From assembly GCF_001590685.1 (NCBI RefSeq), contig NZ_CP014616.1:3099001-3163000 (forward strand): a stretch of 64,000 nt of DNA, in the 5' to 3' direction. Position 1 is the stretch's first letter. Each line of letters opens with the position of its first letter. Shown piece after piece: positions 38,970-56,516 of this stretch. Origin of the DNA: Sporosarcina psychrophila. Its GTDB lineage: Bacteria; Bacillota; Bacilli; Bacillales_A; Planococcaceae. A program made the position numbers and the translations under genes. The notes under the pieces were generated by a model, which did not search any database, was not told where the DNA came from, and was given only the letters and a program-made list of their open reading frames with translations.

Positions 38970-41129
38970 TTAGTCATCGTCTCTGTCTTTGTCTTTGTCT
39001 TTGTCTTTGTCTTTGTCTTTGTCTTTGTCTTTGCCTCTGTCTTTGTCTTTGTCTTTGTCTTTGTCTTTGTTTTTGTCTTTGTCTCTATCCTTGTCTTTAT
39101 CTTTATCTTTATCTTTATCCTTGTTCTTCTCTTTATTTTTCTTATCCTCTTTATCCTTCTTGTTTTCTTTATCTTTCTTCTGCTCGTTGTCTTTCCTTTT
39201 ACTTCGTTTCTGTTTCTTCTTTTCAACCAATGGCAAATCAAATTCCTTATTAGGCAATTCACTCATCGATTTAGATACTATTTGTTGGAAGATAGTTGTC
39301 ACTGTGACACCACTTGTTGCTGTCAAGTAATGGTCTTGATCTGTTTTATCATAGCCTAACCAAATCGCGCCTACGAGATCTGGCGTGTACCCAACAAACC
39401 AATGATCTTTTGAACCAGCTACACCAGGGAAAGGTAGTTGTGTAGTACCGGTTTTTCCAGCTACGTCTATTCCGGGTATCTGTGCATTTCTAGCTGTTCC
39501 GTTATCCACAACACCTTTTAGCATATACGTCATCTTTTGAGCAACTTCCGGTTCTGTAACCTGCGAAGACTTGTCACTCCACTTACCAATTATTTTTCCT
39601 TCTGCATCCTTTATTTCTGATATAGCATGAGCTTGCATCATTATTCCATCGTTAGGAAATGCGGAAAAAGCCTGGGCCATTAACAAGGGTGACGTTCCTT
39701 GGTGTAAGCCCCCCAATGCTAGCCCGAGATTATGATCTTCTTTTTCTAAAGGAACACCAAACCGTTCAACTGTACTAAAACCTTTTTCAATTCCGATTTC
39801 ATTTAATAGCCAAACTGGAGGTATGTTATAAGAGTTTATTAGTGCATCATAGAGTGTCACTTGTCCGCGGTATCGTTTATCAATGTTTTGTGGTTGGTAG
39901 CCATCTATATTGATTGGTTCATCAACCAGCATATCGCCAAAGTCATACCCCTGCTCCAATGCAGCAGTGTAAACAGCAAGCGGTTTTAACGCTGATCCGG
40001 GTTGCCTTACTAAATTTGTCGCATTATTAAAACGTTTGTACGTATAGTCTCCTCTTCCTCCAACTAACGCGCTAATACCACCCGTTTTAGGATTAAGAAA
40101 TACGGATCCACTTTGAATAAGTTGATCGGGCTTGCTAACTGGAAAATTGTTTTCATTCTGATAGACTTCTTCCGTAGCGTCCTGAATAACAGGATTAAGT
40201 TCGGTATAAATGTGAAGTCCCCCAGACAACACCTCATTCTCAGTCAAACCGTACATATTTACTGCTTCCTCGATAAGATAGTCCACATAATACGGATATT
40301 TCCCTTTATAATCTATCGTCTCTTTATCCGTTAATACGATCGGTTGATCAAGGTTTTTATCCAAATCCTGCTGACTGATGTAGCCTTCGCTCTTCATTAA
40401 CGACAGCACGATATTTCTTCGGTCAAGCGCTTTTTCCATGTTTTTATAGGGCGATAAGTTAGACGGAGCTTTGACTAGTCCAGCTAGTGTAGCTGATTCG
40501 TTTAATGTTAGTTCACTCACATCTTTACCAAAATAGACATGTGCTGCTCTCTGAATGCCCCATGCGCCTTCCCCAAAATAGATTTGATTTAGATAGCGTT
40601 CCATGATTTCATCTTTTGAGTACTTTCTTTCGATTTTCTTTGTGAATATTAGTTCTTTGAATTTACGCGTATACGTGCGTTCCGTTGTTAGAAATACATT
40701 TTTCGAAAGCTGTTGAGTAATTGTACTACCACCAGCAACAACTTTACCCTTAACTAGATTTTGCATTAATGCTTTGGTAATACCAAAATAATTAATACCA
40801 TTATGCTTATAAAAATGTTGGTCTTCTGTAGCGACAAAGGCTTCAATGAGTTCTGTCGGAATTTGATCCAGACTTACTCCTTCTATTTTCGAGTTAGACA
40901 CTTTACTAGCTACCTCGCCATTTATATCATAAATATATGTAGGTCTTGGTTCAACAATGTCCAATTTACTTACATCGCTAAACGTTATTAAAATAGTAAA
41001 TACCAATAGCCCAAACAAAGTAATACACATGAAGACTGCTAACAGCCTATTGATGAATTTTTTTGATTTAAACCACTCTTTAAATCTGCTTAATCGCGTC
41101 TGTTTTTTCCTGCGTTCCATTCTAACCAA
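38970..41129 (-). CDS. Class A penicillin-binding protein (transglycosylase/transpeptidase)
   Basis: A 719-aa membrane-anchored cell-wall polymerase. The anchor is at residues 29-50. The GT51 domain has EDQHFYKHNG with catalytic Glu102, GGSTITQQLSKN and ERYLNQIYFGEGAWGIQ. The transpeptidase has S379-x-x-K382 (PGSALKP), SYN at 433-435 and KTGTT at 559-563. It resembles PBP1A/2A-type enzymes. From about residue 640 the tail is made only of Lys, Asp, Glu, Asn and Arg, ending in some twenty Lys-Asp pairs. The TTG at 41129 is the best start because AAGGTGG lies seven bases before it; the next ATG is too far away. A lone gene, with a 19-bp hairpin after its stop. Confidence 0.93.
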   Translation of the reverse strand: MVRMERRKKQTRLSRFKEWFKSKKFINRLLAVFMCITLFGLLVFTILITFSDVSKLDIVEPRPTYIYDINGEVASKVSNSKIEGVSLDQIPTELIEAFVATEDQHFYKHNGINYFGITKALMQNLVKGKVVAGGSTITQQLSKNVFLTTERTYTRKFKELIFTKKIERKYSKDEIMERYLNQIYFGEGAWGIQRAAHVYFGKDVSELTLNESATLAGLVKAPSNLSPYKNMEKALDRRNIVLSLMKSEGYISQQDLDKNLDQPIVLTDKETIDYKGKYPYYVDYLIEEAVNMYGLTENEVLSGGLHIYTELNPVIQDATEEVYQNENNFPVSKPDQLIQSGSVFLNPKTGGISALVGGRGDYTYKRFNNATNLVRQPGSALKPLAVYTAALEQGYDFGDMLVDEPINIDGYQPQNIDKRYRGQVTLYDALINSYNIPPVWLLNEIGIEKGFSTVERFGVPLEKEDHNLGLALGGLHQGTSPLLMAQAFSAFPNDGIMMQAHAISEIKDAEGKIIGKWSDKSSQVTEPEVAQKMTYMLKGVVDNGTARNAQIPGIDVAGKTGTTQLPFPGVAGSKDHWFVGYTPDLVGAIWLGYDKTDQDHYLTATSGVTVTTIFQQIVSKSMSELPNKEFDLPLVEKKKQKRSKRKDNEQKKDKENKKDKEDKKNKEKNKDKDKDKDKDKDRDKDKNKDKDKDKDKDRGKDKDKDKDKDKDKDKDRDDD
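38979..39120. repeat. Hexanucleotide microsatellite coding the Lys-Asp tail
   Basis: The unit GTCTTT (minus strand AAAGAC, Lys-Asp) recurs more than twenty times with few substitutions (CTC, TTT, TAT variants). Slippage by whole units keeps the frame. Confidence 0.95.
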
Positions 41130-42535: not shown

Positions 42536-43351
42536 ATGCAATCAGTTGGAGTTTACATGGAGACAGAGAAATTAGCTCTCACGGACAAGTGTTTAAAACA
42601 AGCTATAGCTAAATTGCATTTACATTTGACAGAAGAGCAAATTGCAAAACACAAAGAGCTATTGACAGTTTTAATAAGCGAGTTTTCAAAAACACTTCTT
42701 TCAAGTAATGAAGAAATAGAGGATATGAATTTAGAATATGACATCGATAACTACTATTACAAAGATGGTACTTTACTTAAAGATACTATCGAAATAATAA
42801 GTACTTTTCGCCTGTCTCTTATGCAAGAAATTCAAAAAAAGGGGCTACTGGAGCAATATGATACAGAAGGAGTAGCTAAACTTTACGAGAAAATTACATT
42901 TGTTTTTGACGATGCAATTCGTAACACTACGAAAAAGTTTAATGAAAGTAATCAAAAAGTAATTAAAGCAATTGAAAAAGAAATTTTGCAACTAGCTGCA
43001 CCCATTGTTCCAATTAGAGATGGTATTGCAATTTTGCCCCTAATTGGTGACTTTAGTGAAGAAAGATCGGCTTACATTACAAATACCGTAATTCCGAAAG
43101 TAACAAAGTTAAATATCGAGTTGTTGGTAATTGATTTTTCAGGAATTCATGCGATTGATACCTATGTCGCTCAACATGTTTTTCAAATAATCGATATCTT
43201 AAAGTTGCTCGGAATTGAAACTGTTATTACAGGTGTAAGACCGCAATTAGCCATGACCACTGTAGAGCTAGGCATAAATACAAAGAACTTGAAAACCTAT
43301 GGTAACGTTCAACAGTTCTTGGAGACGTTTGATAAAAAAGAACAAGTGTAA
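42536..43351 (+). CDS. RsbR-like STAS-domain protein (stressosome co-antagonist type)
   Basis: A 271-aa protein. The N-terminal ~150 residues are helical (non-haem-globin-like sensor region of RsbR paralogues). The C-terminal STAS domain (about 155-268) shows PIVPIRDGIAILPLIGDFSE, LLVIDFSGIHAIDTYVAQHV and TGVRPQLAMTTVELGI, the same order as RsbR/RsbS-type proteins. The conserved phosphorylation sites of RsbR map to the Thr of DTYVAQH and of AMTTVEL. RsbR paralogues sit in the stressosome that gates sigma-B. Start: ATG at 42536 (AGGAATGG before it); an alternative ATG at 42557 has GGAG. A sigma-B-type promoter begins 390 bases downstream. Confidence 0.82.
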   Translation: MQSVGVYMETEKLALTDKCLKQAIAKLHLHLTEEQIAKHKELLTVLISEFSKTLLSSNEEIEDMNLEYDIDNYYYKDGTLLKDTIEIISTFRLSLMQEIQKKGLLEQYDTEGVAKLYEKITFVFDDAIRNTTKKFNESNQKVIKAIEKEILQLAAPIVPIRDGIAILPLIGDFSEERSAYITNTVIPKVTKLNIELLVIDFSGIHAIDTYVAQHVFQIIDILKLLGIETVITGVRPQLAMTTVELGINTKNLKTYGNVQQFLETFDKKEQV

Positions 43352-43738
43352 GTAGGTGAAAAAATCCACATCTCCCGGTTAATTGAAATCATGTTATTCT
43401 TTTTACTCATTTAAATCAAAAGAAAAATCTTAACTGCATGAATCTGACTAAATATTTTCCGTATGAATACCTAAGAAACGGTAGCTGTGCTGGCAAGTAG
43501 TCGTGATAGTCACGATTGTTTCTACACAGCAACCATAAGTGCAAACCGCATGACAATCACTATCTTTACGATAAACGCATATTAATTTTCACTCTTTAGT
43601 CACCATCCTCTCCCCGAATACCAAATCATAGCAATCCCCATATAGAATGTAGATCTTGAATCTTTTTACTCGAAGGGTTTTTCAAAGATCTGTACACTTA
43701 CCATAACTTTGCAAGTTTAAATATTTTTACTCAATGTG
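43352..43738. other. Gap between STAS gene and RNA copy 1
   Basis: AT-rich with two imperfect hairpins (around 43488-43525, AGCTGTGCTGG ... CACAGCAACC). No ORF seen. Confidence 0.35.
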
Positions 43739-43763
43739 GTTTATCTTAATGCAACACGGGTAT
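43739..43763 (+). promoter_or_regulatory. Sigma-B-type promoter, RNA copy 1
   Basis: GTTTAT, 13 bases, GGGTAT; matches the consensus GTTTAA-N13-15-GGGTAT. Copy 2 has the same boxes with a partly different spacer. Confidence 0.7.
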
Positions 43764-43769
43764 CCATAA

Positions 43770-44197
43770 ACTACAAGGCGAAACTACCGAAGGATGAACC
43801 TTAGTAGACGAGTAACCTACAAGTGATTCCGACGATGAACTGCACAGCCTTGGCGGAAAATTTGCTTTGCTGACGATAGGTACACTTTTTTAAGAACCGT
43901 GTTATCAGGTTCCAATTCTAATGTGTTAACCAAGCAGTAAGCGTTACGTTTTTTGTGAAAGTGCAACTTGATGACTGATTTCAAAAGGGCAGATCGCGTA
44001 CCAACCATCTTGCGACTGCATAGCCGGAATGGCTAATTGAGTCAGCCCTATCAAACTGCACTGACGAGAGTTACATGATTATTCGTCAGAAAGAACAGTT
44101 TGTGTGATTAAAAACTATCAAATTTTCCGAGTGCACCCCCCTTTTATCGGGGTATGGAAAAAGCATGATCCCCTTTGTATAAGGATCATGCTTTTTT
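43770..44197 (+). ncRNA. Putative sigma-B-dependent structured RNA, copy 1
   Basis: About 430 nt from the expected start after the sigma-B-type promoter to the terminator. Long blocks are identical to copy 2 at 51705, for example CAGCCTTGGCGGAAAATTTG, AAGCAGTAAGCGTTACG, TTGCGACTGCAT and ACTGCACTGACGAGAG. Visible helices include CTGACGA/TCGTCAG, GAACC/GGTTC, GTAG/CTAC, and CCCC/GGGG just before the terminator. No frame with a ribosome site and no shared long ORF exists. It does not look like RNase P, tmRNA, 6S, SRP RNA or a common riboswitch. The function is unknown; the identity as RNA is inferred from promoter, conservation and terminator together. Confidence 0.65.
44158..44197 (+). terminator. 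Terminator of RNA copy 1
   Basis: AAAAAGCATGATCC pairs with GGATCATGCTTTTTT. Compared with copy 2, one A-T pair is G-C there. Confidence 0.9.
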
Positions 44198-44221
44198 CTT
44201 GTTTATGGAACTATCACTACC

Positions 44222-44277
44222 TGAAAAAAAACTGCCCGCAAAAGCTGAATGACATCCAGCCTTCCGGACAGTTCCTC
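44222..44277 (-). terminator. Terminator of the fructuronate operon
   Basis: On the minus strand AACTGTCCGGAAGGCTG pairs imperfectly with CAGCTTTTGCGGGCAGTT and is followed by eight T. It lies about 30 bases after the gntP stop. Confidence 0.75.
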
Positions 44278-51528: not shown

Positions 51529-51673
51529 GCATTAGTTTATGAAATCTAAAAACTCTCTTTCTTAAGCTTAATTTTCAAGTGGTTTTTAGAGAATGCTATC
51601 TACAGATTCGTTCAGTTTATAAGGTATTCATTTATTCAACATATAGTTGTGAAAAAGTTTTCTGTGTAAAGTG

Positions 51674-51698
51674 GTTTATCTTAATTTAAGCTGGGTAT
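51674..51698 (+). promoter_or_regulatory. Sigma-B-type promoter, RNA copy 2
   Basis: GTTTAT, 13 bases, GGGTAT. The first six spacer bases (CTTAAT) equal those of copy 1 and the rest differ, yet both boxes are kept. Confidence 0.7.
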
Positions 51699-51704
51699 AG
51701 TTAG

Positions 51705-52133
51705 ATTACAAGGCGGAACTACCGGAAGATGAACCTTAGTAGACGAGTAACCTACAGGCGAATCGGACGATGAATTGCACAGCCTTGGCGGAAAATTTGC
51801 TTTGCTGGCGATAGGTACACTTTTCAAGAACCGAGTGATTAGGTTCCAATCTCTATGTGTTTACTAAGCAGTAAGCGTTACGTTTTTTGTGGAAGTGCAA
51901 CTTGAAGACTGACTTCAAAAAGCAGATCGCGTACCAACCATCTTGCGACTGCATCGCCGAACTGGCTAATTGAGTCAGCCCTATCAAACTGCACTGACGA
52001 GAGTTACATGATTATTCGTCAGAAAGAACAGTTTGTATGATTGAAAAAACTATCAAATTTTCCGAGTGCACCCCCTTTATTGGGGAATGGAAAAAAAGCA
52101 TGGTCCTCTTAGTTTGAGGGCCATGCTTTTTTG
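51705..52133 (+). ncRNA. Putative sigma-B-dependent structured RNA, copy 2
   Basis: Same length, promoter, order of blocks and terminator as copy 1. Differences are scattered single bases, and the helix CTGACGA/TCGTCAG and the CCCC/GGGG helix are conserved. A helix TTGAAG/CTTCAA (around 51911-51928) is better formed here than in copy 1. It lies between kdgK and the gltP-like gene, on the strand opposite to both. Small reading frames such as MNLSRRVTYRRIGR have no ribosome site and end at different places in the two copies. Confidence 0.65.
52091..52133 (+). terminator. Terminator of RNA copy 2
   Basis: AAAAAAGCATGGTCCTC pairs with GAGGGCCATGCTTTTTT (one G-T pair). It also backs on to the end of the gltP-like gene. 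Confidence 0.9.
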
Positions 52134-55794: not shown

Positions 55795-55965
55795 TAATTT
55801 CTCCTTTTATGTCCCACCACACTGTTTGTGTACGATTATTATCAACCAATTTATTGATAAATGAAAGAAGTAAAATTTGTTTACTTGCGAAAGAGCGTAC
55901 TGAATTCGATTTGCAGTGTGTTTTCCTGTATTTTGGGGACACTACAGCTTACTGGAGGAGATAAA

Positions 55966-56238
55966 ATGGCTAGCAAAAATAGGATTTTGGTACCTGGTGC
56001 ACGACAAGCGTTAGATCAGCTGAAAGCGGACGTCATGCAAGCCCAAGGCTACGACGTGGATAAATCTGCACCCAATAACGTGAAATTCGAAATTGCGGAG
56101 GAACTCGGCATTCCACTATCAAAGGACTATAACGGAAAACTAACGTCGGAACAGGCGGGGAAAATCGGCGGCTCGATTGGTGGCAATATGGTGAAAGAAA
56201 TGGTGAGAATGGCGCAAGAGCAAATGGCAAAGAAATGA
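55966..56238 (+). CDS. Alpha/beta-type small acid-soluble spore protein
   Basis: A 90-aa SASP that coats and protects spore DNA. It has the two conserved blocks: KFEIAEELGIPLSKDYNGKL with the GPR protease site in the EIAEEL region, and SEQAGKIGGSIGGNMVKEMV. The length is slightly above the usual 60-75 because of a longer start (MASKNRILVPGARQALDQLK). AGGAG precedes the ATG; an in-frame upstream extension is not credible. Presence of this gene marks the organism as an endospore former. Confidence 0.93.
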   Translation: MASKNRILVPGARQALDQLKADVMQAQGYDVDKSAPNNVKFEIAEELGIPLSKDYNGKLTSEQAGKIGGSIGGNMVKEMVRMAQEQMAKK

Positions 56239-56280: not shown

Positions 56281-56505
56281 TGTTGGACGCTTTACTGCGT
56301 TTGTTGTACAGTTCGGTGTAATGGTTGGAAACTTTGCCGCGTTCGTTGGATACTTCAGCTTAATGGTTGGAAACCACCACGTTCGTTGGACTAGTTCGGC
56401 GTAATGGTTGGACACTTCAGCTTAATGGTTGGAAACCACCGCGTTTGTTGGATAGTTCAGCTAAATGGTTGGACACTCTACCGCTCTCGTTAGATAGTTC
56501 GGGAA
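56281..56505. repeat. Tandem-repeat block (GGTTGGA units)
   Basis: Units of about 20-22 bp alternate: TTCAGCTTAATGGTTGGA(A/C) and AC(C)ACCGCGTTCGTTGGATAG variants recur at least five times. It lies between converging genes and has no ORF. Confidence 0.8.
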
Positions 56506-56516
56506 CAAGACACCCC

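Follow-up and report, generated by a model that had tools for sequence, protein, structure and literature searches.

The question raised by this locus was which kind of element occupies positions 43739-44197 of a 64,000-nucleotide stretch of the Sporosarcina psychrophila genome (NCBI RefSeq assembly GCF_001590685.1, contig NZ_CP014616.1, positions 3,099,001 to 3,163,000 of the forward strand; hereafter the window), where a promoter is followed by roughly 430 nt in which no plausible gene is found and then by an intrinsic terminator, whose last base is 44197. The original prediction had proposed a sigma-B-dependent structured RNA of an unrecognised class, present in two copies. This analysis aimed to (i) verify the architecture of the element, (ii) determine its distribution, its promoter and its fold in other genomes, and (iii) weigh the functions that such an RNA might have.

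The predicted promoter GTTTAT-N13-GGGTAT was found with both boxes and the 13-nt spacer in place on the plus strand (43739-43763; -35 box GTTTAT at 43739-43744, -10 box GGGTAT at 43758-43763). The RNA of this first copy would extend on the same strand from 43770, a start deduced from the spacing of the -10 box, to 44197, the end of the terminator T-run, with the terminator itself at 44158-44197 (plus strand). The module had been said to recur 7.9 kb away with about one tenth of its bases changed, which agrees with a second copy on the plus strand at an offset of about 7,935 bases (43733-44200 and 51668-52132 are 89% identical). This copy has its own sigma-B-type promoter (51674-51698; GTTTAT at 51674-51679, GGGTAT at 51693-51698), a putative RNA including the terminator at 51705-52132, and helices P1 (51709-51714/51782-51787) and P2 (51789-51799/52054-52064). 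The similarity of the two copies begins shortly 5' of the promoter and stops with the terminator, whose stem reads GCATGATCC/GGATCATGC in copy 1 and GCATGGTCC/GGGCCATGC in copy 2, and the compensatory change from an A-T pair to a G-C pair that had been pointed out there can be seen in both sequences. The minimum free energy of the element was -121.5 kcal/mol (z -3.55), and 0/100 shuffles were as stable.

Homologues beyond the two window copies, on which the original prediction had staked itself, proved to be many, with a third, diverged copy in the same Sporosarcina genome (genome position 2,879,001-2,879,464) and relatives in more than a hundred bacterial species. Their distribution was determined using a near-invariant 22-nt core, which in the window is GCACAGCCTTGGCGGAAAATTT at 43842-43863 (plus strand). 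With at most two mismatches the core pattern GCACAGCCTTGGCGGNAAATTT was present in 122/261 genomes of the order and a reversed control pattern in 1; the carriers numbered 54/68 in genus g1, 8/8 in g3, 2/2 in g12, 46/46 in g7 and 12/19 in g4, and this search found none in the remaining 14 genera of the order. BLASTN with the 468-nt element gave matches in 55/68 Sporosarcina genomes and in 114/250 genomes of the family. In a sample of the class the core occurred in 27/398 genomes, two of them outside the family, of which G596 alone is convincing. When 45/65 candidate rows were used to build a covariance model for the 5' domain, 28/398 class genomes matched it, and its weak new matches G612 and G431 were discounted since they are without the other blocks and, judged by their sequence, appear to be protein genes.

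The exact core pattern was further found in 106 stretches of the named genome collection, with carriers in Sporosarcina, Planococcus/Planomicrobium, Psychrobacillus, Bhargavaea, Edaphobacillus and Indiicoccus, in Oceanobacillus, Ornithinibacillus, Gracilibacillus, Halolactibacillus, Streptohalobacillus, Amphibacillus and Natronobacillus, and in Bacillus badius/thermotolerans. The family Caryophanaceae was earlier named Planococcaceae. Family assignment by NCBI look-up, which covered Sporosarcina and Oceanobacillus, places the former in the Caryophanaceae and the latter in the Bacillaceae. Core matches in L162 (Dehalococcoidia), L202 (Shimia), L102 and L103 were rejected because the set of other blocks is absent, and the matches in L162 and L202, two of these 106 stretches, are for this reason taken as chance. 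The copies from Bhargavaea and Edaphobacillus (L113, L120) carry an insertion of slightly under 300 nt, which separates the core from the TTTTTTGTG block and in which GGACACCAGGAGGACA-like units are repeated. A record named "Arthrobacter beigongshangensis" (L109, L146; NZ_JADHDX010000001.1) holds the RNA twice; the name looks wrong, because NCBI lists Sporosarcina beigongshangi.

The promoter was searched for in the 136 copies with sufficient upstream sequence using the pattern GTTT[AG]-N12-16-[GT]GG[TA]A ending 9-11 nt 5' of ACAAGG. It was present at this constant spacing in 125/136 copies versus 6/2720 dinucleotide shuffles; among the 11 misses, 10 have near-consensus boxes when inspected by eye, and in L194 a later ACAAGG had been taken by the script. 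Given the constant gap and the usual distance of a start from its -10 box, transcription would start just 5' of P1, and the promoter is kept at the predicted transcript start, as expected of a sigma-B-dependent non-coding RNA. Under a strict criterion, a terminator-like hairpin lies directly 3' of 97/123 elements versus 6/615 shuffles; a loose criterion was set aside for its poor separation (89/123 versus 118/369 shuffles). Ten further stretches with 14 copies, among them tandem pairs in genus g4, showed the promoter in 13/14 and the terminator in 14/14. A sigma-B gene scoring above the family cut-off was found in 17/17 searched carriers from other genera, and in one RNA carrier (G260) the match lay below the cut-off. 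Since 241/250 family genomes have a sigma-B gene above the cut-off, co-occurrence has no discriminating value, and it was discarded as a useless test. Transcription by sigma-B, which had likewise been predicted, gains comparative support from the conserved promoter and from the sigma-B gene of the carriers in other genera, and the RNA is probably made by this form of the polymerase.

The fold was examined in the alignments of these copies, and all positions given here refer to the plus strand of copy 1. Helix P1 (43774-43852; CAAGGC 43774-43779 with GCCTTG 43847-43852) closes a 5' domain, inside which a hairpin GTAG...CTAC is located at 43804-43820, and the long-range helix P2 (43854-44129; CGGAAAATTTG 43854-43864 with CAAATTTTCCG 44119-44129) closes a central domain. 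The latter includes the conserved block GTTTTTTGTGAAAGTGCAACTTG (43948-43970), helix P5 (43975-44045; CTGATT 43975-43980 with AGTCAG 44040-44045), the inner hairpin P5b, for which the evidence is mixed (43994-44015; TCGC 43994-43997 with GCGA 44012-44015), and hairpin P6 (44052-44102), with an outer helix CAAACTG 44052-44058/CAGTTTG 44096-44102 and an inner helix CTGACGA 44061-44067/TCGTCAG 44083-44089. A pseudoknot may further join GTGCA (43961-43965) to TGCAC (43841-43845); it is regarded as putative because standard pairs, although possible in most rows (69/72 to 84/87), are nearly invariant. The P1 strand ACAAGG[CT] was found 5' of the core at 136/136 real places (shuffles 15/680) and the P2 strand ATTTTCCG 3' of the core at 130/135 (shuffles 8/675), counts that are free of the choice of anchors and exclude four rejected places.

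For the covariation analysis, 142 distinct core places were reduced to 123 with all anchors and, after thinning, to 92 alignment rows. P1 pairs in 92/92 rows and ten P2 pairs form in 89-92/92 rows, both nearly invariant and partly so by construction, since the anchors that selected the rows include the P1 and P2 strands; for the last P2 pair, 77/92 rows have a standard combination (GC 65, TA 5, AT 4, GT 3). Covariation could not show in P1 and in most of P2, which vary too little. In a blind pair-level test against tree-based nulls (92 rows, 348 columns), E <= 0.5 was reached by none of the pairs. The blind stem-level test followed later, with a single setting (four nested pairs with at least 70% pairing in each) and also against tree-based nulls. 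It placed P5 at the top and the 5' hairpin next, each above all null maxima (reached by 0/100), and P5b, P2 and outer P6 were not significant, as they were reached by 10, 86 and 98/100 null maxima, respectively. In a targeted test, which was partly post hoc in that P5 and P5b had been picked up from the pair-level ranking, 9/32 pairs stood at 0/200 tree nulls, namely the last P2 pair, two pairs of the 5' hairpin, four of P5 and two of P5b; no pair of P3 or P6 did so in this test. P3 is a weak helix, which the two copies in the window form poorly.

A separate count for P5 and P6 used 34/61 candidate rows that were chosen for alignability, a selection biased towards structure. In these rows 92.2% of the P5 cells were paired, with changes on both sides in 4/6 pairs, compared with 61.0% of the cells for P5b and 88.4-100% for P6. 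The 24 chosen pairs were formed in 86.9% of cells versus 25-42% when slid, and their covariation score exceeded 500/500 shuffles; some slid versions, however, had at least as many both-side changes (10 pairs and 21 cells in place, maxima of 11 and 29 when slid). RNAalifold, unaided, predicted P5 and inner P6 from this alignment. An outer P6 helix of at least 5 pairs was present in 43/72 elements versus 277/1440 shuffles, and CAUAC replaces CAAACUG in 7 of the elements examined for it. The proposal of a structured RNA with conserved helices is borne out by two stems, P5 and the 5' hairpin, which covary beyond phylogenetic expectation in the blind stem-level test, with a negative blind test at the level of pairs. 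We consider it very probable that the element represents a class of structured non-coding RNAs of sigma-B type.

Searches with Rfam found no family at gathering score over the window. A permissive search of 43600-44250 (E <= 5) returned sub-threshold matches to snR75 (E 1.5) and sau-5971 (E 4) only, and among 14 further loci (E <= 1) the only match over the element was a sub-threshold group II intron in L035 (E 0.44). The class had been called unrecognised before Rfam was searched, and with no match over the element at the curated threshold it stays so. The literature search, of limited weight since most subscription papers lay outside its scope, found no description of this RNA, and a 2024 survey of 50 genomes makes no mention of it in those parts that were covered (PMC11109978). 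Because there was neither an Rfam match at threshold nor a published description among the sources searched, we regard the element as an unrecognised RNA class; the novelty lies in the class, and free-standing structured stress RNAs are a known type.

OLE (ornate large extremophilic RNA) is, like this RNA, large, elaborate, conserved and non-coding, and the gene for an OLE-associated protein is located near it. The present RNA differs by its own sigma-B-type promoter; among its 79 neighbourhoods, compared by clusters of ORFs, no gene was common to all. The OLE model had no match in the window (gathering score), in 43600-44250 (E <= 5) or at the 14 further loci (E <= 1). Rli47 (SbrE) of Listeria is under sigma-B control; as for the present RNA, a convincing 22-nt core outside the family was confined to G596 in the class sample. 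By description Rli47 is non-coding and of similar length (~515 nt), with the Shine-Dalgarno region of ilvA as its binding site (PMC12596718). ROOL, GOLLD and the raiA-motif are described as large bacterial RNAs of elaborate structure, and a title cited in the same source presents OLE as belonging to a ribonucleoprotein particle that responds to stress (PMC12286853). The ROOL and GOLLD covariance models were not matched by this RNA in the window, in 43600-44250 or at the 14 further loci. Homo-oligomers are a feature of ROOL, GOLLD and OLE. ROOL and GOLLD form nanocages, and the raiA-motif RNA studied, compared by description, has 205 nt versus ~430 nt here (PMC12286853).

The genomic context was analysed for 79/106 named loci using a simple ORF caller. 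The label of the RsbR-like gene that had been noticed just upstream is fair, as the gene at 42536-43351 encodes a STAS domain (PF01740, E 1.7e-13). Its relevance was not upheld, since no relative of this gene, nor of the PfkB and GntP genes of the window, was found in the DNA around the other copies (many of these flanks are just 1.5 kb). The dicarboxylate symporter of the window, at 96% identity, adjoins the copies in G020 (Sporosarcina psychrophila, L158) and G021. No gene was common to all 79 neighbourhoods, and the biggest neighbour clusters, with 22 and 18 of the 79 loci, seem from the names of the records to reflect Planococcus synteny. The consistent downstream gene of a cis-regulatory leader or riboswitch was not found among these loci, where the largest cluster is the one of 22, and most elements have the terminator-like hairpin directly 3'. 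Because the neighbours vary between lineages while the sequence blocks and the fold persist, the RNA would act in trans. In one relative, a SAM riboswitch (L061 1853-1961, minus strand) lies a few hundred bases from the RNA core. Elsewhere in the window, a long ORF at 38970-41129 (minus strand), which by likeness may be a penicillin-binding protein, ends in a long Lys-Asp-rich repeat tail whose DNA is a repeat array with 12-base spacing; degenerate repeats around GTTGGA...CTTCAGC, in several copies of 42-46 nt, occupy 56282-56509, and an ORF at 55861-56238 (plus strand) presumably resembles an alpha/beta small acid-soluble spore protein.

The element could in principle be something other than a non-coding RNA gene, and the two readings of this kind are both highly improbable. 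If the RNA encoded a short peptide, alone or beside another function, this would agree with the longest minus-strand ORFs, whose median slightly exceeds that of shuffles (47 versus 38), but the 63-aa minus-strand ORF at 43817-44008 is not preserved in a single frame in relatives, each frame through the core is open and has a start in at most 50/92 rows, and the longest plus-strand ORFs of the 123 elements are not longer than in shuffles (median 35 aa versus 37). The element is very probably non-coding and has no conserved ORF; the ~430-nt stretch in the window had been described as free of ORFs. A DNA-level or mobile element, such as a repeat, a part of a retron or an intron remnant, might account for the three copies in the Sporosarcina psychrophila genome and for the group II intron match that overlaps the element in L035, but promoter, blocks and terminator stay together, BLASTN with the element had no phage or plasmid match, none of the viral contigs searched contains the core, and the neighbourhoods share no gene. 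A match to a known mobile element or coding gene, which the original prediction had named as evidence against itself, was not found.

The reading that we favour is a structured non-coding RNA of ~430 nt that has a free-standing transcription unit to itself. Reading the signals in the DNA, RNA polymerase with sigma-B would initiate just 5' of ACAAGGC and the intrinsic terminator would end the transcript. In its fold, P1 would close the 5' domain and P2 a large, branched central domain; P2 starts one base after P1, and the UGCAC/GUGCA pseudoknot may clamp the two domains. In the likeliest mechanism the general stress response would make a preformed scaffold whose invariant blocks would bind a conserved protein or another RNA, and which would work like the OLE stress ribonucleoprotein. 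That the RNA is a scaffold for protein or RNA, a step drawn by analogy, seems to us slightly short of an even chance, and the whole statement of a sigma-B-made, trans-acting structured RNA serving as such a scaffold is evenly balanced. The main rival to the scaffold is a sigma-B-dependent base-pairing regulator, in which conserved unpaired segments would bind stress-regulated mRNAs at their ribosome-binding sites, in the manner of Rli47 on ilvA. The sigma-B-type promoter and the terminator are typical of such regulators, and 2-3 core copies are present in 17/122 carriers (one rejected second place excluded), small RNAs that act by base-pairing being often multi-copy. The most invariant stretches, however, lie mainly inside helices P1 and P2, and the several blocks conserved across families would be more than one seed region needs, so that we hold this role to be rather unlikely. 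Lower still in probability is a decoy that soaks up an RNA-binding regulator in stress, like CsrB-type RNAs: the units repeated in the large Bhargavaea/Edaphobacillus insertion are rich in GGA, but this insertion was noted in that lineage alone, and GGA triplets are little more frequent in the elements than in shuffles (mean 6.4 versus 5.4 per element).

To our knowledge, few bacterial RNAs this large have so many invariant positions, and such RNAs (ribosomal RNA, RNase P, OLE and similar) are mostly machines or scaffolds. Through its promoter this RNA is linked to the general stress response; the RNA side of that response has, as far as we know, received little study except in Listeria, Staphylococcus and B. 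subtilis. Deletion and probing of the RNA would be feasible in harmless bacteria, which opens its function to direct tests. As a tentative view, to which we give less than even weight, two families of Bacilli may share an unrecognised class of ornate RNA that is switched on by sigma-B and would sit at the centre of a complex, made of RNA and protein or of RNA only, which would be a standing part of their general stress response.
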